Below are positions 39,776-63,443 of a stretch of DNA of 64,000 bases, in pieces. The stretch's first letter is position 1, and each line of letters starts with the position of its first letter. The DNA is from Planctomycetaceae bacterium (GTDB taxonomy: Bacteria > Planctomycetota > Planctomycetia > Planctomycetales > Planctomycetaceae), in the NCBI GenBank assembly GCA_021732845.1, contig JAKFUF010000132.1, positions 1-64,000 of the forward strand, written 5' to 3'. The position numbers and the translations under genes are program-made. The notes beneath the pieces are model-generated. The model searched no databases. It worked only from the letters and a program-made list of their open reading frames with translations, and was not told the origin of the DNA.

Positions 39776-41584
39776 ATGCGCCCGTACAGCCTCCTCTGTC
39801 TGGCAGCCATCACAGGGATCCTCTGTGGGTGTCAATCTGCGCCCGTGCAGCCACCGCCAGAGTTTCGGACAGTCGGGGACAGTTTCCATACTCCACGTTT
39901 TCAGCCGACTCCCAGCCACGATCTAGTGAAACAAGCGGGGGCTTCGCAATCGGCAATGGGGCCGCCGACACCCCCTCCGCTTCCGCTGAGTTTGCGGAAC
40001 GCGGTTGTGCAGTCGTTGACGAACTCCGAAGTGGTGCGGCTGCTGGGACCAGGCGGTGTCACGGTCAGTTCGGCGACAATCTTTGATCCACAGATCACGG
40101 CGGCGCGGGCTCGCGCGGCGGAGGCCGGATTCGATCCGCGGATTGATCTGGGATATATTGGCAGCCAGATCAATGATCCTCCCAGTTCGTTTTTTGGGCC
40201 AGGCATTCCGACCAACACGCAACGGGATGAGGGCGATCTGGTGGCAACGCTCACCAAGCCCTGGTCCACCGGAGCCACGACTTCGCTCGCGTTTGACGCT
40301 CCGCTGAACTATCTGTTCTTTCCGGATGGCACCTCGGGACCATTCAACCCGGCGTACGAGACTGGCTTTGCGCTGGATGTTCGTCAGCCGCTTCTGAGGG
40401 GGGCAGGGTTTGCCGTCAATCTGGCGCCCATCCGCATTGCCAATCTGCGGACCGACCAGCAGGACTGGCAGGTCCGGCAGGCCACCATGGAGCAGATTCG
40501 CAGTGTCGAGGAGGCCTACTGGCAGCTTCAGGCGACGGTCGTTGCCAGGCAGTCGATTGAAGCCATCATCCCCTTGGCGGAGGAGACGGTCCGGATCCAG
40601 CGGAACCGTTTCGAGGGGCAGTTGGTGACCGAGGCGGACCTGGCACGGGCGGAAACCCAATTGGCCGAGTTTGGTCAGCGACGGAGCCGGGTACAGCTCC
40701 TGCAGCGGACAACCGAACTTCGTCTGCGGAACATTCTGGGACTGCCGGCACAGAACCTTCCCGGCCTCATTCCCATCGATCCCCCGACACAGAGGCTGAT
40801 TCCGCTGGACGTTGAGCAGTCCGTCGAGCTGGCATGGAACAACCGCCCGGACCTGATTCAAAAGCGGCTCGAGGTCGATATTCGCGGGCAGGAACTGCTC
40901 GTGGCTGAGAATGGCCTGAAACCAAAACTGGATGCCTTCGCCCGCTACAAAACCGGCGGCCTGGCGGACAGGCTGGACGCCTCGCTCGATCAGGCACTGA
41001 CCTTTGGCTACACCAACTGGACCCTCGGGACATCGTACTCGATGCCTCTTGGAAACCGGGCGCCGCGCGCCGCACGCGACGAAGCGCAGCTCAAAATCGC
41101 GAGGGAGCGGGCGCTGCTGCAGCAGATGGAGCACAATACCCGCTACCAAATCGCCGAAAACATCACGGCCATCCAGGCGACATGGGAGCAGTATGAGCTG
41201 GCACAGCGAAAGGCCCGGGAGTCCCTGAAGTGGGTGGAGATCTCGCGGACGCGGTTCTCCTACCCGCCGCCTGCAGAAGCAGGCGGGCAGGATCTGCTGA
41301 CGATTCTGCTCGTTGACTATCAGCAGTCACTGCAGGCCCATGTGGACGCTGTGACCGACGCCGCAAAACTGCTGGCTGATTACAATTCGCTGCATGCCCG
41401 CCTCGAAGAGGCGCAGGGGACGCTGCTCGCGCGGCGGCAGGTGTGGCTCAACGGCGACGACCCCGATCCCCAGGGATTCGTCCCCGAAAATCTTCCCAGC
41501 GGCCACTCCCTCGCGTTTCCCCCGCCGACCGGTTCGCCGCTCTCGCAGCCTGTCGGGAACGTCATGCCCACCCCCGGGAGTTGA
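39776..41584 (+). CDS. TolC-family outer-membrane channel
   Basis: 602 residues from ATG 39776, which starts a signal peptide ending in a lipobox-like LCGC (Cys19). The long helical part includes VEEAYWQLQATVVARQSIEA, FEGQLVTEADLARAETQLAE and a second half with ELAWNNRPDLIQKRLEVDIR, the two tandem TolC repeats. Typical length is 450-520; the extra residues are N- and C-terminal Pro-rich extensions. It forms a trimeric exit duct with an HlyD-type adaptor. The only adaptor near it is the convergent gene at 41588, whose stop lies 3 bp away. Confidence 0.92.
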   Translation: MRPYSLLCLAAITGILCGCQSAPVQPPPEFRTVGDSFHTPRFQPTPSHDLVKQAGASQSAMGPPTPPPLPLSLRNAVVQSLTNSEVVRLLGPGGVTVSSATIFDPQITAARARAAEAGFDPRIDLGYIGSQINDPPSSFFGPGIPTNTQRDEGDLVATLTKPWSTGATTSLAFDAPLNYLFFPDGTSGPFNPAYETGFALDVRQPLLRGAGFAVNLAPIRIANLRTDQQDWQVRQATMEQIRSVEEAYWQLQATVVARQSIEAIIPLAEETVRIQRNRFEGQLVTEADLARAETQLAEFGQRRSRVQLLQRTTELRLRNILGLPAQNLPGLIPIDPPTQRLIPLDVEQSVELAWNNRPDLIQKRLEVDIRGQELLVAENGLKPKLDAFARYKTGGLADRLDASLDQALTFGYTNWTLGTSYSMPLGNRAPRAARDEAQLKIARERALLQQMEHNTRYQIAENITAIQATWEQYELAQRKARESLKWVEISRTRFSYPPPAEAGGQDLLTILLVDYQQSLQAHVDAVTDAAKLLADYNSLHARLEEAQGTLLARRQVWLNGDDPDPQGFVPENLPSGHSLAFPPPTGSPLSQPVGNVMPTPGS

Positions 41585-41587
41585 GTG

Positions 41588-44008
41588 TCACCACCAGAAC
41601 TCGGTGCGAAATTCTTTCAGGAATCGCTGAGTCAGGATCATTCCCAACAGCTTTTTTCCCCGGCAGATGCGGGCGGCACCGGTCATCCCCGCTTTCAGCC
41701 GCCCCGCGGTGTTGTCGACGTGGCAGTGCACCTTGACCCGGCTGCGGCTTTGGTCCGCGGTCGCCGCACTGGGAGCAATGCGTTCGACCGTGGCATGAAA
41801 GGTTTCAAACGGCAGGGCACGGATCCGGAGTTCCACGCTCTGGCCAACCTGGACCCCCATGATCGAGTCCTCATCCACCTCAATTTCCACGGACAAGGTC
41901 GACATGTCCTCGACGACGCAGACGAGCGCCCCCTTTTCCAGCAGCATGCCGGACTTCTCCGCCATCCGGGGTGTTGAGACGACGCCGGTGGCGGTGGAGA
42001 CAACAGCCTGCTTGTCCCATTCCCCCTCCAGAAACTTCAGCTCCTCCTGGAGCCTGGCGAGCTTGGCGGATTCCGCGGCGATGTCCTCGGGCCGGCTTCC
42101 GGCATTCATCAGGGTGAGGGCCGACCGTGAGTCGGCGAGTTCCTTTTCGCGGCGGGCCAGCTCGGCCTCGGCCAGCCGCACACCCTCCACGGTTCGACCC
42201 TGCTTTTCCGCCTCGGCCTGCGCCAGCCGCGACTCAAGCAGCCGCACGCGCTTCTGCTCGGCGCGGAGCTGCTCTCCGGCAAATGCGCCCCGCTGGGAGA
42301 GAATGGTGGCCCGTTCGAGCGACTGCCGGGCATAGGCCAGTTCCGTTTCCGACTGCATGACCGCATGGCCCAGGTTTTTCAATCCATGCTCAAGGCTGAC
42401 CCTGGCCCGCGACAGGTCCGTCCGCGCCAGTTCAACCCAGTCCACCGCCCGCTGCACCCGGGCCTTCTGTTCCGCGATTTCCTCGGCCCGCGGTCCGATT
42501 TTGAGTTTGGCCAGCGTGGCGTCGCACTCGCGGATGTCGGCGCGTTTGCGGACGAGCAGACTTTCCAGATCTGGTGCATGAATCTGCCCGATGACCGTGC
42601 CTGCACAGACCGGAGACCCTTCCTCCACCGCGATGTCGCGGAAAAAGCCGGCCAGGGCGGCATGGATTTCCACCCGGTGTCCGGAGCGCACCAGCACCTC
42701 ACCCGTTGCCGAATGATTCAGGGGAACCCAGAACAGGATGGCAGGGACGCCAATGACCAGCATTGCCCAGAGGGCGGTGCGACGATGACGAGATTTGAAC
42801 ATCTTCACGAACTCGCTTGTCAACAGGCCTTTGAACACACGGCGGGACACAAAAATCAACAGGAGGCCGCTGACTGCCGCCCCGGGCAGGCCGAACTTCC
42901 CCAGCACGAAGTGGTACAGCCCCAGCGTGAGCAGGTTCAGGGTTCCCACGGCGACGAGCCACATGACGCCGCCATAAATCAGCAGCCAGCCACCACGCGC
43001 CGCGGCCGCTGGCCGGGTGCTCCCCCAGAAGAGCCACCGCGCATGAGCCATGAAGTAGTCCCGGGCGCGGACCCGCAGGTTGGGAATCTCCAGCCAGTCG
43101 CCCAGCAGATAGTAGCCGTCCAGCCGCAGCAGCGGATTCAGATTCAAAAACACCCGTGTGCCGCACGTCGTGAGCACCACCTGCGTCACATAGTGCAGCA
43201 GGCTGTCGGGCACGGTCACCCGCCACAAAAACACCGAACAGGCCCAGACGCACAGGTCCGAATAGCCGCCCGCGGCGGTGACCCACAGCCGCTGCGATTT
43301 CCGGGGAATGAGCCACGCATCGGTGACATCGCAATAGAAGCAGGGCATGAAGAAGATCATCAAGACCCCCATTTCATGCACTTCGCCCCCAAAATGCTTG
43401 CAGGTCAGTCCGTGGGCGAATTCATGGACCGTGGTGATAAGAACCAGAGTGCACCAGATCAGTGCGACTGTCTCCCAGCGCACGGCCTGCGGGAAGTTGC
43501 TCACCAGTTCCGCGCGGGCCGACCATAGCGTGAAGCCGGCCAGTCCAATGCAGGCCAGGGAGAGGGCCAGAAACCCTGGCGTCCAGAGAAACCTGACCCA
43601 CGGTTCAATGCGGTTCAGGATCCAGTCGGGATCGAACAGGGATTTGCGAAAGAACAGCCAGCTTTGCCCGTTGAGGTCCTGCAGTTCCTCATCGTCGGCA
43701 ACGCCGCCCGCCGAGGGCGTTGCGGCGGCGGTTTCCAGCAGGTTGCGGCCGCGGATCATGTCGACGAAATCGCCGAGTTCGTCGGGACTCAGGGGTTCGT
43801 TGAACTTTTCGGCGAAGGCGCGGCAGACGACTTCCGGCTGGGTCACCCCATCCAGGCGTTCCAGCAGAAAGCTCTCGACAGGGCCGATTCGGAAATACGC
43901 CCGAGTCCGGCGGTCCTTGACAACATATTCGTCGTTTCCCACGGGTTTGACAGAAACGTCGCTGCGCAGGCGGGGAATGGGAGTTCCGGGGCCGGCCATA
44001 TGACGCAT
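41588..44008 (-). CDS. PqqD-like (RRE), M50 protease and HlyD adaptor fusion
   Basis: 806 residues from ATG 44008 (GGAAAC upstream; ATG 43999 and TTG 44029 are alternatives). Domains in order: residues about 11-90 match PqqD (RAYFRIGPVESFLLERLDG...), the RiPP leader-recognition fold. Then a polytopic M50 site-2 protease with HEFAHG (about 195) and LNPLLRLDGYYLLGD (about 300), so the zinc ligands are intact. From about 430, an HlyD/biotinyl-lipoyl part (RSGHRVEIHAALAGFFRDI), a coiled-coil hairpin, and a beta-barrel (LSVEIEVDEDSIMGVQVGQS). It is likely an inner-membrane export/processing component that pairs with TolC. Confidence 0.92.
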   Translation of the reverse strand: MRHMAGPGTPIPRLRSDVSVKPVGNDEYVVKDRRTRAYFRIGPVESFLLERLDGVTQPEVVCRAFAEKFNEPLSPDELGDFVDMIRGRNLLETAAATPSAGGVADDEELQDLNGQSWLFFRKSLFDPDWILNRIEPWVRFLWTPGFLALSLACIGLAGFTLWSARAELVSNFPQAVRWETVALIWCTLVLITTVHEFAHGLTCKHFGGEVHEMGVLMIFFMPCFYCDVTDAWLIPRKSQRLWVTAAGGYSDLCVWACSVFLWRVTVPDSLLHYVTQVVLTTCGTRVFLNLNPLLRLDGYYLLGDWLEIPNLRVRARDYFMAHARWLFWGSTRPAAAARGGWLLIYGGVMWLVAVGTLNLLTLGLYHFVLGKFGLPGAAVSGLLLIFVSRRVFKGLLTSEFVKMFKSRHRRTALWAMLVIGVPAILFWVPLNHSATGEVLVRSGHRVEIHAALAGFFRDIAVEEGSPVCAGTVIGQIHAPDLESLLVRKRADIRECDATLAKLKIGPRAEEIAEQKARVQRAVDWVELARTDLSRARVSLEHGLKNLGHAVMQSETELAYARQSLERATILSQRGAFAGEQLRAEQKRVRLLESRLAQAEAEKQGRTVEGVRLAEAELARREKELADSRSALTLMNAGSRPEDIAAESAKLARLQEELKFLEGEWDKQAVVSTATGVVSTPRMAEKSGMLLEKGALVCVVEDMSTLSVEIEVDEDSIMGVQVGQSVELRIRALPFETFHATVERIAPSAATADQSRSRVKVHCHVDNTAGRLKAGMTGAARICRGKKLLGMILTQRFLKEFRTEFWW

Positions 44009-44073
44009 CCAGTTTCCGTGGTCAGACAAAAAACTGGCGTCTCAATCCTGAGACGCCAGGCGCGCGGCGACGA

Positions 44074-44466
44074 TCAGCACTTGGTCTGCTTAACCACGAC
44101 TTTGCAGGCGGTCTCTTTCTTCGCGGAACCACCCTTCTTGTGGGATCCACCCTTGTGCGACGATCCGCCCTTCTTGGAACCGCACTTGGCGGACTTGCCC
44201 TTCTTGTGGGAACCGCCCTTTTTCGACGAACCGCCCTTGTGCGACGATCCGCCCTTCTTGGAGCCACACTTGGCGGAACCGCCCTTGTGCGATCCGCCCT
44301 TGTGCGATCCGTGATGCGATCCGCCATGGTCGCTGCCGCTGTGGTTCGAACCGGACGAACAGGAGTCATCATGCCCGGTGTCACAGTAGAAGGCGCTGGG
44401 GGCGATTCGGTCTTCGAGGCGTTCGAACTGGAAGCGGGACTTCTTGCCGTCATTGTTCTGCGTCAT
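44074..44466 (-). CDS. LEDR-leader repeat protein, Lys/Gly/Ser/His/Cys-rich
   Basis: 130 residues from ATG 44466. The N-terminus is MTQNNDGKKSRFQFERLEDR followed by IAPSAF; then YCDTGHDDSC. From about residue 38 the protein is built of short units HKGGS, KKGGS, AKCGSKKGGSSHKGGS repeated, ending TKC. Six Cys in all. No classical signal peptide. The leader motif FERLEDR[IV]AP recurs in planctomycete exported proteins (recognised by me, family not named) and also heads the next gene. It lies 65 bp beyond the M50-HlyD start on the same strand. Proposed cargo of that system. Confidence 0.78.
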   Translation of the reverse strand: MTQNNDGKKSRFQFERLEDRIAPSAFYCDTGHDDSCSSGSNHSGSDHGGSHHGSHKGGSHKGGSAKCGSKKGGSSHKGGSSKKGGSHKKGKSAKCGSKKGGSSHKGGSHKKGGSAKKETACKVVVKQTKC

Positions 44467-44738
44467 GTTGTCTTTCACCGATGAGCGAAGGGGAATAAGC
44501 GAACGTTGACGGAAATATGTTTCACGAACTCGCCGTCCCCTGACCCCGACTGCCCGGCAGCACGTGAAAAAATCCAGTTTGCGGGGAGATTGCCGAAAAT
44601 GAGAATGACGCGGATTGCGCCGTTGGCGAGCAGATCCCACACGGCGATCCGAACCGGTTCTGGTTTCCCGCCGCTGGTGGCCGCGACGTGAGCTACGCTT
44701 GCGCTGGAGCCAGATCATGCTTCAACAGGACTCACCCA

Positions 44739-45257
44739 ATGACCGCCCAACCAGCGACACGCCGGCAGTTTCGGATGGAACGGCTCGAAGACCGGGTGGC
44801 CCCCAACAGCCTGCTGTGGCAGGGCGGACTCGTCGAAGTCCTCGTCGGCACCGGAGCGCTCAATGCAGGATTCCCCGCCCAGCCATTGGTTTCGGCGTCC
44901 ACGCGGATTGCCGCACTGCGCCTGAGAACTTCGTCTGCGTCTGAAACTGCGTCGCCAGCCGTGCCAACGCTCCCGCTCTGGGCGGAATCCCTGCTGCTCC
45001 AGATCGAACAAGAACTCGAAAAGGCTGCCGCCCCGGCCGGCGAACCCGTCAGCGTGGCTCAACAGGACCAGGCGGACCGGCTCGACGCCTTGATGGCCCA
45101 GGTCGATGAGGGGCTGTGCCACGCGGTGCGGCCGGCAGGCGAGACGATGCCCGCCTGGGCCGAAGATCTGCTGCTGGAGATCCAGCAGGAAGTTGCCCAA
45201 TCGGCGCGGTGCCGAACCTCCCGCCCGCGAGCCGGTATGGCCGTCAGCCTCCGGTAA
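44739..45257 (+). CDS. Second LEDR-leader small protein
   Basis: 172 residues from ATG 44739 (AGGA 8 bases upstream). MTAQPATRRQFRMERLEDR then VAPNSLLWQGG; the leader matches that of the neighbouring 130-residue protein position by position. The remainder is mostly helical with two related blocks, LPLWAESLLLQIEQELEKA and MPAWAEDLLLEIQQEVAQSA. No signal peptide, no known domain. It is transcribed divergently from the repeat protein. Confidence 0.72.
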   Translation: MTAQPATRRQFRMERLEDRVAPNSLLWQGGLVEVLVGTGALNAGFPAQPLVSASTRIAALRLRTSSASETASPAVPTLPLWAESLLLQIEQELEKAAAPAGEPVSVAQQDQADRLDALMAQVDEGLCHAVRPAGETMPAWAEDLLLEIQQEVAQSARCRTSRPRAGMAVSLR

Positions 45258-45386: not shown

Positions 45387-45806
45387 TCAGCAGCAGGCGA
45401 TCAGTTCGGTCACGGGCGCGGGACTCTTGACCAGAATCCGCAGGCTTTCCTCTTCACTCAACACATGGATGAAGAAGGGCTTCCACAACTGCAGGCAACG
45501 GGCGGCGCGATGATTGCCGTCGATCAGCAGGTGGCTGTGGACCAGTTCGCCATCCGGGGTGGGGAACCAGAGGTGAGCCACGATGCCAGGATAGCGCGTG
45601 TGGACATGCTGGAGATGCGGCTGATAGATGCGGCTGTTGTCGACGCAGTGCCGCACATCGTCCACCTCCATCTCGACCGGGTCGCGCCCATCTTGCACGA
45701 TTGCGCGGGCCGCATCCACGTCAAAGACGTAACGGCCGGAAAGATAGCGGTAAGTCTCAGGACCGGTCCGGCAGTGGGGGCATTTGTTCCGTGCGCGCGA
45801 CTGCAT
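45387..45806 (-). CDS. ParB-like nuclease-fold protein with CPHC motif
   Basis: 139 residues from ATG 45806 (AGGA upstream); TTG 45824 is the alternative. N-terminal CPHCRTGPETYRYLSG includes a CxxC (possible zinc). The central and C-terminal part has PGIVAHLWFPTPDGELVHSH followed by LLIDGNHRAARCLQLWKPFF, in which IDGNHRAA matches the ParB/Srx-type nucleotide-binding segment. It may bind DNA or nucleotide. Function not assigned. Intergenic on both sides. Confidence 0.7.
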   Translation of the reverse strand: MQSRARNKCPHCRTGPETYRYLSGRYVFDVDAARAIVQDGRDPVEMEVDDVRHCVDNSRIYQPHLQHVHTRYPGIVAHLWFPTPDGELVHSHLLIDGNHRAARCLQLWKPFFIHVLSEEESLRILVKSPAPVTELIACC

Positions 45807-61055: not shown

Positions 61056-61566
61056 CTAAGAGTCAGTCGGGCTTCTGACCGGCTTCGCGGTGGGCGTTTT
61101 CAGTCGCTCCGCAAAATCGCCCGCCAGTGTTCCGCGCTGCTCGTCGGGATTTCCCGGACGGATCTCAACGCGAAATTGATGCGGCCGGGGCTCCGTGGGT
61201 GACGACCGGAACCGTGTCTGCTGCAACGGCCGAAACTGGCTGAACTCTTCATCCAGCAATGCGTTGATTCATGATCCTGCTCCACATGGCATCAAACCAC
61301 AACCGCCGGGCGAGCACCCGCGGATCGCCAAACCGCTGCTCCACACGTAGCCACAGGGCAGCGCGGACGTTCTCCGAATCCTGGCTTCGGGCGTCGTCAC
61401 TGGCCTGTGACAGCAGGCCAGTCCGCATCCGCTCGCGGTTCCAGGCGCACGCCAGGTGATCGTTCAGCTCGTCCAGAATGTCCTGCCGCAGCGACGCCGG
61501 TTCGTCGTCATGCCCGGTCGGCAACTGGGCGGCGAGGATGGATTGAAAGTCTTGCGGTTCGTTCAC
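61056..61566 (-). pseudogene. Deleted paralog of the 587-residue membrane protein
   Basis: The N-terminal ~100 residues (from GTG 61566: NEPQDFQSILAAQLPTGHDD) match those of the 61635 gene, including DILDELNDHL and WFDAMWSRIMNQR. After MNQR the frame ends (IAG), and a second frame (61259-61056) carries the matching C-terminal piece (RVEIRPGNPDEQRGTLAGDF). The transmembrane and central ~420 residues are gone, so this is a deletion derivative with a frameshift. Confidence 0.8.
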
Positions 61567-61634: not shown

Positions 61635-63398
61635 TTACTCGGCCTTTTCACCGGGTTTGACTCGAGGAGGTAAAACCGGCTTGAGGCGGTCTTCGAAATC
61701 GGCAGGGAGAGTGCCGCGCTTGTCTTCCTCGCCTGCCGGGTGGATTTGGTATTTGAGCCTTGGCCCGGATGACGAATAGAGACCGCGGTTCGGCTTCGAG
61801 ACCTCCCGGAACTTTTGAAGTTCTTCCTTCGTTAAGTGGCAGAGAATGGCATAGGTCAGGACGCCTTGTGATGTGAACTGCACCCTTCGGCCGAAGAGTG
61901 GAACATTGGCTAGAACGACTTCGCGATCCAGGAGGATATCCAGGCGATCCGTTGGCAAGACGTGAGAGGCTGGACTGATGGCGACCGAACTGCTTCCCTC
62001 GGGCGTATTGACCAGAAATTCAACGAGATCCAGCTTTTTACGCGGGGCTTCGAGAATCCAGGTCTCCGTCGAAGGCCAGGTGACGAACCGGATCCCTTTC
62101 TCTTTGTCCGTTGGCTCATAGGGCTCCGACCGCCCTGGACGGACGATGCCCAAAGGCAGCGGGCGGAATGCAGGCTGTTCGGAAAAAATGAAAAACGCGC
62201 GCTCGGTCGGATCGCGGTCGTCCACAACGGCCACTCCGTCAAATCGGACCTGGTAGGCACCGAGTGGAAGTTCAAACCGCTCCATGGGCTGCGCTGTGGA
62301 AGACAGCGTTAACCGGCCCAAGGCAAATTCCGCCAGACTGGCGTCCGCGGGTCGGGGAACAGTCTCAACGTTCGCCCCCTGCCAAGGCTGTTCGTAATAC
62401 TGCTCTGCCAATGGTGTGTTGGCATCTCCAAATCTCCACATCCTGCCATCCGGATCAATGGCGATTGTGAGCTGGGTCTTGTTCGGTTGCACCAGCCAGT
62501 TTTCGCCTGCCTCGTGGCTGAGCGATTGAATCCGAAACTGATACCAGAACCGCTTTTTCATCGCCTCCGTCAAATGCACTTCCGGGGGCTTCAGTTGCAG
62601 CGGGACCTGGACGACTGCGTTGGGAGGCGGGCAGACAATCACTTCTTTCCGATCCTGCCCGGGATAGACAGAGATCTTGTAGGAGCGCTTGAGTTTGTCC
62701 GCGATGGACACTGTCAGGACGTACTGCCCGTAGAGAACCTGTCCGATTTCCGCCAGCCCCTGCTTGTCGGTCACGACAGTTTTGGGAGGCAGCCTGGACG
62801 ATGGCTCCGCATCGGCACAGGTCACCGAAATCCCCTCCAGTGGCTTGCCACCCGGTGTTTCAGAGACGCAGCGGATGAGCAACTGGTTCCACTCACGTGG
62901 CTGAGTCGAAACGGGGGCCACGACCGGAGCCACTGGCTGCCGCTCCACGATGGACCGCAGTTCCTTTAACAAATCTGCGTTTGCCGACTGAACTTTTTCG
63001 GCCAGTGCGCGGCTCGCTGCCAGCGACTGCCACGCGAGCGCCATCGACCCCAAACTCGTCGCCACCAGCAAACAGATCGCGGCCATGAGAAAACGCTGGT
63101 TCATGATCCTGCTCCACATGGCATCGAACCACAGCCGTCGGGCGAGTGCCCGCGGATCGCCAAACCGCTGCTCCACACGCTGCCACAAGGCAGCGCGGAC
63201 GTTCTCCGAATCCTGGCTTTGGGCGTCGCCACTGGCCTGTGACAGCAGGCCAGTCCGCATCCGCTCGCGGTTCCAGGCGCACACCAGGTGATCGTTCAGC
63301 TCGTCCAAAATGTCCTGCCGCAACGACGCCGGTTCGTCGTCATTCCCAGCCGGCAGTCGGGCAGAAAGGATGTGCTGAAAGTCTTGTCGATTGCCCAC
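61635..63398 (-). CDS. Membrane protein with cytosolic N-terminal domain, tandem family
   Basis: 587 residues from GTG 63398 (AGGG about 8 bases upstream); GTG 63404 and TTG 63422 are alternatives, but alignment with the deleted paralog supports 63398. N-terminal DILDELNDHLVCAWNRERMR region, one helix (FLMAAICLLVATSLGSMALA, about 103-122), a coiled coil, then a large periplasmic-type region with beta-rich modules (YPGQDRKEVIVCPPPNAVV). The C-terminus ends in RGTLPADFEDRLKP. Family and function not known; permease-associated or anti-sigma-like N-terminus is only a resemblance. Confidence 0.82.
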   Translation of the reverse strand: MGNRQDFQHILSARLPAGNDDEPASLRQDILDELNDHLVCAWNRERMRTGLLSQASGDAQSQDSENVRAALWQRVEQRFGDPRALARRLWFDAMWSRIMNQRFLMAAICLLVATSLGSMALAWQSLAASRALAEKVQSANADLLKELRSIVERQPVAPVVAPVSTQPREWNQLLIRCVSETPGGKPLEGISVTCADAEPSSRLPPKTVVTDKQGLAEIGQVLYGQYVLTVSIADKLKRSYKISVYPGQDRKEVIVCPPPNAVVQVPLQLKPPEVHLTEAMKKRFWYQFRIQSLSHEAGENWLVQPNKTQLTIAIDPDGRMWRFGDANTPLAEQYYEQPWQGANVETVPRPADASLAEFALGRLTLSSTAQPMERFELPLGAYQVRFDGVAVVDDRDPTERAFFIFSEQPAFRPLPLGIVRPGRSEPYEPTDKEKGIRFVTWPSTETWILEAPRKKLDLVEFLVNTPEGSSSVAISPASHVLPTDRLDILLDREVVLANVPLFGRRVQFTSQGVLTYAILCHLTKEELQKFREVSKPNRGLYSSSGPRLKYQIHPAGEEDKRGTLPADFEDRLKPVLPPRVKPGEKAE

Positions 63399-63443
63399 GG
63401 TCACTGCCCTTGGAAGAACCAACGATTGATCCGCAAGTGACCT

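Follow-up and report, generated by a model that had tools for sequence, protein, structure and literature searches.

The 64,000-nt stretch of DNA analysed here (the window) carries a cassette that is probably a leader-directed protein export system: an RRE would bind an LExR tag on the cargo, an M50 protease would remove this tag, and an HlyD adaptor would export the product together with TolC. Recognition element, protease and adaptor are joined in a single polypeptide, to which we refer as the fusion. Given that the fusion lies beside tag-bearing genes in at least nine phyla, and that its relatives lie beside the giant LEPR-XLL proteins, it is probably an undescribed protein-export route.

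Table 1. Features of the cassette, with positions in the window.
Feature	Position	Strand	Basis or remark
TolC-family outer-membrane channel, 602 aa, lipoprotein-type N-terminus	39776..41584	+	Pfam OEP
Fusion: PqqD-like recognition element, M50 intramembrane metalloprotease and HlyD adaptor in a single polypeptide	41588..44029	-	
PqqD/RRE-like domain, residues 25-94, bbb-aaa	43748..43957	-	AlphaFold2; PqqD match in ortholog L046
M50 membrane protease domain, residues 135-434	42728..43627	-	NF041824 match; helices in model
M50 zinc motif HEFAH	43412..43426	-	
HlyD/MFP periplasmic adaptor, residues 436-794	41648..42724	-	Pfam, Foldseek
LEDR gene 1, putative small cargo/precursor 1, 130 aa	44074..44466	-	Leader + Gly/Ser/His/Lys/Cys repeats
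Leader core ERLEDRIAPS of LEDR gene 1	44395..44424	-	
LEDR gene 2, putative small cargo/precursor 2, 172 aa	44739..45257	+	Divergent from fusion
Leader core ERLEDRVAPN of LEDR gene 2	44778..44807	+	
CPHC / DG[NH]HRAARC protein, 139 aa, fifth cassette gene	45387..45806	-	Conserved neighbour of fusion

An earlier note on this DNA had listed the fusion, the TolC gene and two small genes with an ERLEDR[IV]AP motif, all of which were found in place (Table 1); its inventory was right for these four genes and overlooked the fifth, which encodes the CPHC protein. The TolC gene (101 bits with Pfam OEP, cut-off 22, 6.9e-29) and the fusion gene are convergent, with 3 bp between them. The fusion starts either at TTG 44029, giving 813 aa, or at ATG 44008, giving 806 aa, and ends in RTEFWW. 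LEDR gene 1 precedes the fusion in the same orientation with a gap of 44 bp, an arrangement consistent with an operon. In LEDR gene 2, the leader is followed by a body rich in Trp, Leu and Glu in which the motif [LM]P.WAE[SD]LLL[QE]I recurs. In both small genes the ERLEDR[IV]AP motif sits 13-15 residues from the start, and neither has a hydrophobic signal sequence ahead of the tag. Elsewhere in the window, two neighbouring ORFs on the reverse strand (61249-61566 and 61635-63422) are near-identical over an N-terminal stretch (NDDEPASLRQDILDELNDHL..CAWNRERMRTGLL), as would be expected after a recent local duplication.

The domains of the fusion are recognized with different ease. Its HlyD part scores 63.5 bits with HlyD_D23 (Pfam cut-off 30), and its best matches among solved structures are EmrA (2.5e-18 in Foldseek) and MacA. 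By Pfam alone, the window fusion stays below the cut-offs for both Peptidase_M50 (20.3 bits, cut-off 27.2) and PqqD (14.1 bits); in the ortholog L046, PqqD passes with 24.6 bits (cut-off 23.4). The NCBIfam model of the PqqD-M50 daptide protease (NF041824) matches residues 19-402 with 216.3 bits, which is below its curated cut-off of 300, and gives a comparable 212.6 bits in the fusion of locus L119. The AlphaFold2 model, built from 57 sequences, has a mean pLDDT of 86.6; in it, residues 25-94 fold into three strands and then three helices, which is the RRE topology, and a helical membrane M50 domain and the adaptor come next. The active site HEFAH...LDG is present in the window fusion; HExxH and the distal aspartate that define M50 proteases are both found within predicted membrane helices, and HExxH together with the LDG aspartate is intact in 81 of 81 fusions. 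Four further PqqD-M50-HlyD proteins are encoded in the window genome; at L029:6708-11312, one of these paralogs has as its divergent neighbours a gene for a MacB-like ABC ATPase and another that is MoxR-like.

Relatives of the fusion were sought in one genome per species across 84,980 species, and the best 80 of 170 relatives were kept. Of these 80 loci, 58 have, no more than 3.5 kb from the fusion, an ORF whose product begins with LExRIAP or a close variant, compared with a mean of 0.6 loci (maximum 4) for shuffled motifs. Of the 51 ORFs in the 80 loci that match the strict leader motif, 49 precede the fusion in the same orientation at a distance of at most 2.5 kb; over 200 permutations of the motif, the average was 0.025 and the highest value 2. 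The loci come from at least nine phyla, namely Planctomycetota, Acidobacteria, Verrucomicrobia, Nitrospirae, Nitrospinae, Gemmatimonadetes, Rokubacteria, Ignavibacteria and Proteobacteria, as assigned from record titles, in which the labels of metagenome-assembled genomes may be wrong. Many loci do come from such genomes, and linkage on the same contig protects against misbinning; genes were called with a simple script. Isolates, too, show this neighbourhood of leader ORF and fusion (Pseudogulbenkiania subflava, Adhaeretor mobilis and Rhodopirellula maiorica). Several loci carry two to five tandem leader genes with differing bodies behind the same leader (L079, L080, L085, L113, L114 and L119). 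Within the family of the window genome the distribution is patchy, a close ortholog of the fusion being present in 6 of 37 genomes, with a gene order common to the orthologs.

No leader was seen in the remaining 22 of the 80 loci, about half of which end at a contig edge. Loci for which the contig end offers no explanation are L052, L070, L097, L099, L102, L104 and L115. Three leaderless loci (L059, L066 and L074) have repeats of the GSSKKHGSS type, on either strand, that reach the contig end. In two others, from Zixibacteria and Ignavibacteria, a small zinc-ribbon membrane protein is encoded just 5' of the fusion (L099:7709-7915 and L104:7662-7916), and these fusions may use another partner or tag.

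The association was also examined from the leader side, by searching a degenerate DNA pattern of the leader, with reversed-pattern controls, in 294 genomes of Planctomycetota and 199 of Acidobacteria. Nearly all matches were judged in context, and those away from an N-terminus were discarded. True N-terminal LExRI[AV]P leaders remained in nine planctomycete and five acidobacterial genomes. The earlier note had held that LEDR proteins, if frequent in genomes devoid of the fusion, would speak against its proposal; genuine leaders were accompanied by the fusion in 14 of 14 genomes, against base rates of 32/294 in planctomycetes and 29/199 in acidobacteria (p=7e-10 and p=5e-5, respectively). Counting seven families instead of nine genomes, the planctomycete value becomes about 2e-7. 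Across 30 genomes with the fusion, the leader pattern occurred 37 times and the control pattern twice. Because few fusion candidates were scored per genome in the co-occurrence samples, absences are uncertain and the enrichment is conservative; likewise, absence of the fusion in the phylum-wide search (alignment A1) is weak evidence, as three candidates were scored per genome. Linkage and co-occurrence thus strongly support the earlier note's proposal of a functional pairing between the leader and the PqqD-M50-HlyD protein.

Across loci the leader is constant, with the core consensus (I/F)-x-x-L-E-x-R-I-A-P-S, and the body behind it is variable, consisting of Gly/Ser/Lys/His repeats or of short conserved cores (e.g. 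GLLGYEGQPGNQ, NNPPLNNTNNPGNEG and TPEVPVGAHPQPNP). Such cores, for instance GYEGQPGNQ and NNPPLNNTNNPGNEGTGGQVSTGG, also occur in clusters with multiple precursors. Leader and repeats of LEDR gene 1 are near-identical in L044/L054, L077 and L047. None of the small leader proteins tested matches an NCBIfam or Pfam family. As a search motif, the generic R[LF]EDR is not useful, since its 26 matches in the window genome do not exceed those of the control (29); at an N-terminus it is found there only in the two window genes, in one giant protein (L026) and perhaps in L018.

The tag is not restricted to two small planctomycete genes, a limit that proved too narrow: beyond its spread over at least nine phyla, it also heads proteins of 700-2,500 aa encoded away from the fusion (genomes G088, G132, G149, G110 and G114). 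In four of these genomes (G149, G132, G088 and G114; L130-L138 and L154), several proteins of ~700-2,500 aa per genome start with LEELEERIAPT, far from the fusion, and one planctomycete family seems to put the tag on many exoproteins. In genome G110, a 1,589-aa protein (L127:1348-6117, reverse strand) starts with LRLEQLEDRIVPS and has clostripain-like and T9SS-type sorting-domain-like matches. At another locus (L144:3704-10433, genome G081), the fusion is directly followed by a 1,491-aa LEDRIAP protein with a long, repetitive, acidic body and then by HlyD-like genes, a large-cargo version of the RIAP class. With these large leader proteins, use of the tag extends beyond small peptides.

A related tag heads giant proteins. 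In the window genome, giants start with SIEPLEPRVLL, VMVEPLEPRAML or LESLEDRRLLS; the LEPR-XLL model (NF012209, cut-off 17 bits) matches neither of the two window cargos, and in a search of the same genome with this model none passed the cut-off. Among 369 gammaproteobacterial genomes, the fusion is present in 24 of the 28 with clear LEPR-XLL genes and in 15 of the 341 others (Fisher p=1.4e-23); in most cases the two genes share an operon. A closer query recovered it in two of the four exceptions, which brings the count to 26 of 28; the same query in 18 LEPR-free controls gave no match at 1e-30 and a single one at 4.5e-18. Two genomes with the fusion that the LEPR model misses carry the variant tags LESQERRILFSAD and LESVEPRLLFSAG at the LEPR position. 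The recurring gammaproteobacterial operon encodes a GAF-HlyD protein, the PqqD-M50-HlyD fusion, an HlyD protein and the giant LEPR protein, whose body in L240 is adhesin-like (CshA, cadherin and DUF4347). The GAF-HlyD protein (L245:6153-7616, L240:5704-7491 and similar) is an unusual domain pairing in itself. A profile made from RIAP leaders only ranked LEPR N-termini at the top among 133 gammaproteobacterial genes. In a tree of the fusion (quick search, SH-aLRT 99), one arm holds the fusions with LEPR cargos and the window-genome paralogs, and the other those with RIAP cargos; leader class therefore matches fusion branch. One published LEPR-XLL giant carries RTX and seralysin domains at its C-terminus (PMC10868602), pointing to a type I route for at least some of these giants.

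Some 20 planctomycete loci have a convergent TolC relative beside the fusion, and a role of TolC as universal partner was rejected, since its gene adjoins the fusion chiefly among planctomycetes; the earlier note was right about the gene and its convergent orientation, and TolC as a fixed part is not supported. Its statement that no dedicated ABC ATPase is nearby stands: a scan for Walker A and LSGG motifs, which recovers the MacB-like ATPase in L029, flagged a candidate in a single one of the 80 RIAP-class loci, besides a distant gene of the window, and found none in the 20 gammaproteobacterial loci, so that such genes are near-absent from fusion neighbourhoods and none recurs. The CPHC protein adjoins the fusion in 23 planctomycete loci in addition to the window, that is, beside nearly every planctomycete fusion with enough flanking sequence, and in this branch only. 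Its AlphaFold2 model (pLDDT 91.6) has no significant match in the PDB, and the protein belongs to no Pfam or NCBIfam family; it has a ParB/sulfiredoxin-like motif and a weak match to sulfiredoxin (probability 0.25). It might represent a novel variant of a fold, or an enzyme specific to the cassette.

From the tag, the architecture and active site of the fusion, the linkage, the co-occurrence and the correspondence of leader class to fusion branch, we infer binding, cleavage, route and direction of transport as follows. Cargo would be made without a Sec signal and with a short N-terminal leader. On the cytoplasmic side of the inner membrane, this leader would be bound by the PqqD-like (RRE) domain at the N-terminus of the fusion. 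Once cut off from its leader by the M50 domain, the product would pass into the periplasmic HlyD tunnel and out via TolC, using the cassette's own copy in planctomycetes and presumably a housekeeping copy elsewhere. As the system has no ABC ATPase, transport would draw its energy from something else or be coupled to proteolysis. The giant LEPR-XLL exoproteins would be served by a sister branch of this machine. A point against this export model is that the passage of giants through an HlyD-TolC channel without an ATPase lacks an explanation. The sub-cut-off Pfam scores of PqqD and M50 in the window fusion, the missing TolC neighbour outside the planctomycete branch, the giant with RTX domains and the leaderless loci count against it as well.

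The main rival explanation is that the fusion only processes or retains LExR cargo, with the HlyD part as a periplasmic anchor or scaffold and with export left to different machinery, for example a type I system encoded at a distance in the genome. We consider this rather unlikely. It would fit the lack of a recurring motor protein in the cassette, the RTX domains, typical of type I secretion, at the end of some LEPR-XLL giants (PMC10868602), and the gammaproteobacterial operons that carry three different HlyD proteins without a transporter. However, neither a Sec signal nor an RTX region is present in the small cargos, and in most phyla the fusion alone recurs beside them. Moreover, the HlyD part is complete and matches the EmrA/MacA adaptors, and TolC is a conserved neighbour in planctomycetes. 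Alternatively, the cassette could be a RiPP pathway, in which the repetitive cores of the small precursors are modified by the CPHC/ParB-like protein or by an unlinked enzyme and the fusion matures and exports them. The leader-core layout, the RRE-like domain, a PqqD-M50 half whose closest matches are daptide and epipeptide proteases, and the multiple precursors per cluster with short conserved cores all point in this direction. Nonetheless, this seems distinctly improbable to us: the CPHC gene is limited to one branch, proteins as long as 700-2,500 aa start with this leader too, and in the inspected gene maps the neighbours of the fusion include no recognised modifier, be it radical SAM, YcaO, lanthionine, ATP-grasp or another. 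Since no modification enzyme recurs, the RiPP frame on which the earlier note drew is not supported.

M50 proteases frequently have a role in signalling, and the M50 domain might be a site-2-type protease in a regulated intramembrane cascade with the leader proteins as its regulators. The GAF domain in the gammaproteobacterial partner would be in line with this, but no sigma or anti-sigma gene recurs among the neighbours of the fusion, the HlyD and TolC partners indicate export, and the cargo bodies are repetitive or adhesin-like; we regard such a role as very remote. Finally, that leader and fusion are neighbours by chance, or through shared ancestry without function, is close to refuted by the permutation and reversed-pattern controls and by co-occurrence in three independent genome samples.

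Tentatively, and with somewhat less confidence than would make it our expectation, we propose a hitherto undescribed kind of ATPase-free, leader-directed secretion by one RRE-M50-HlyD polypeptide, which would read the LExR tag, cut it off and hand the cargo to TolC, and of which the LExRIAP branch would export small peptides with repeats or short cores in at least nine phyla and the other branch the LEPR-XLL giants. If so, the orphan LEPR-XLL tag would gain a receptor and a peptidase, and diderm bacteria an extra secretion route with its own sorting tag. The exit of small, repetitive proteins that lack a Sec signal, as well as that of very large LEPR-XLL exoproteins, from the cells of environmental bacteria would be accounted for, and a RiPP-type recognition domain would be at work in general protein export. 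The purpose of the LEPR-XLL tag becomes testable, with a named partner, an active site that can be mutated and a short peptide.

Several known systems resemble the cassette in part. Closest to the PqqD-M50 half of the fusion are RiPP leader proteases. The daptide protease MpaP (NF041824) likewise combines a PqqD-like domain and an M50 half with HExxH and acts on leader-bearing peptides; the fusion differs from it by its sub-cut-off score, an added full HlyD adaptor and another leader, and has no daptide modification enzymes beside it. Similarity to the epipeptide protease YydH/LiaK (NF058609) is weak, at 30.1 bits and far below the cut-off of 225; this model contains neither RRE nor HlyD, and the epipeptide radical SAM enzyme is absent here. 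RRE-dependent RiPP systems (PqqD, RRE-Finder; PMC7470986) share leader peptides and the predicted bbb-aaa recognition domain, and leader-core precursor genes lie beside the machinery here too, whereas no modification enzyme was found and cargo ranges from ~45 to >2,000 aa. M50 and HlyD go unmentioned in two RRE surveys. Type I secretion and microcin-type exporters (C39-peptidase ABC transporters) have in common with the cassette an HlyD-type adaptor, TolC and a leader-guided, protease-coupled logic; in contrast, the cassette has no dedicated ABC ATPase, and M50 and RRE domains stand in place of the C39 peptidase and ATPase. LEPR-XLL proteins (NF012209, LEPR-8K) carry a 24-residue N-terminal tag with an LExR core that the RIAP profile recognizes, and their genes are operonic with the same fusion family, whereas the window cargos have LExRIAP and small bodies; within the material reached, the model describes no function or exporter. 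No family model was found that describes the system, nor any paper among 5.39 million open-access ones. Because it has no ATPase as in type I secretion, no recognised modifier as in RiPP pathways, and sub-cut-off scores with the daptide and epipeptide proteases, we place the system outside these known kinds and rate it as new in kind, assembled from known domains, with export as its probable function.
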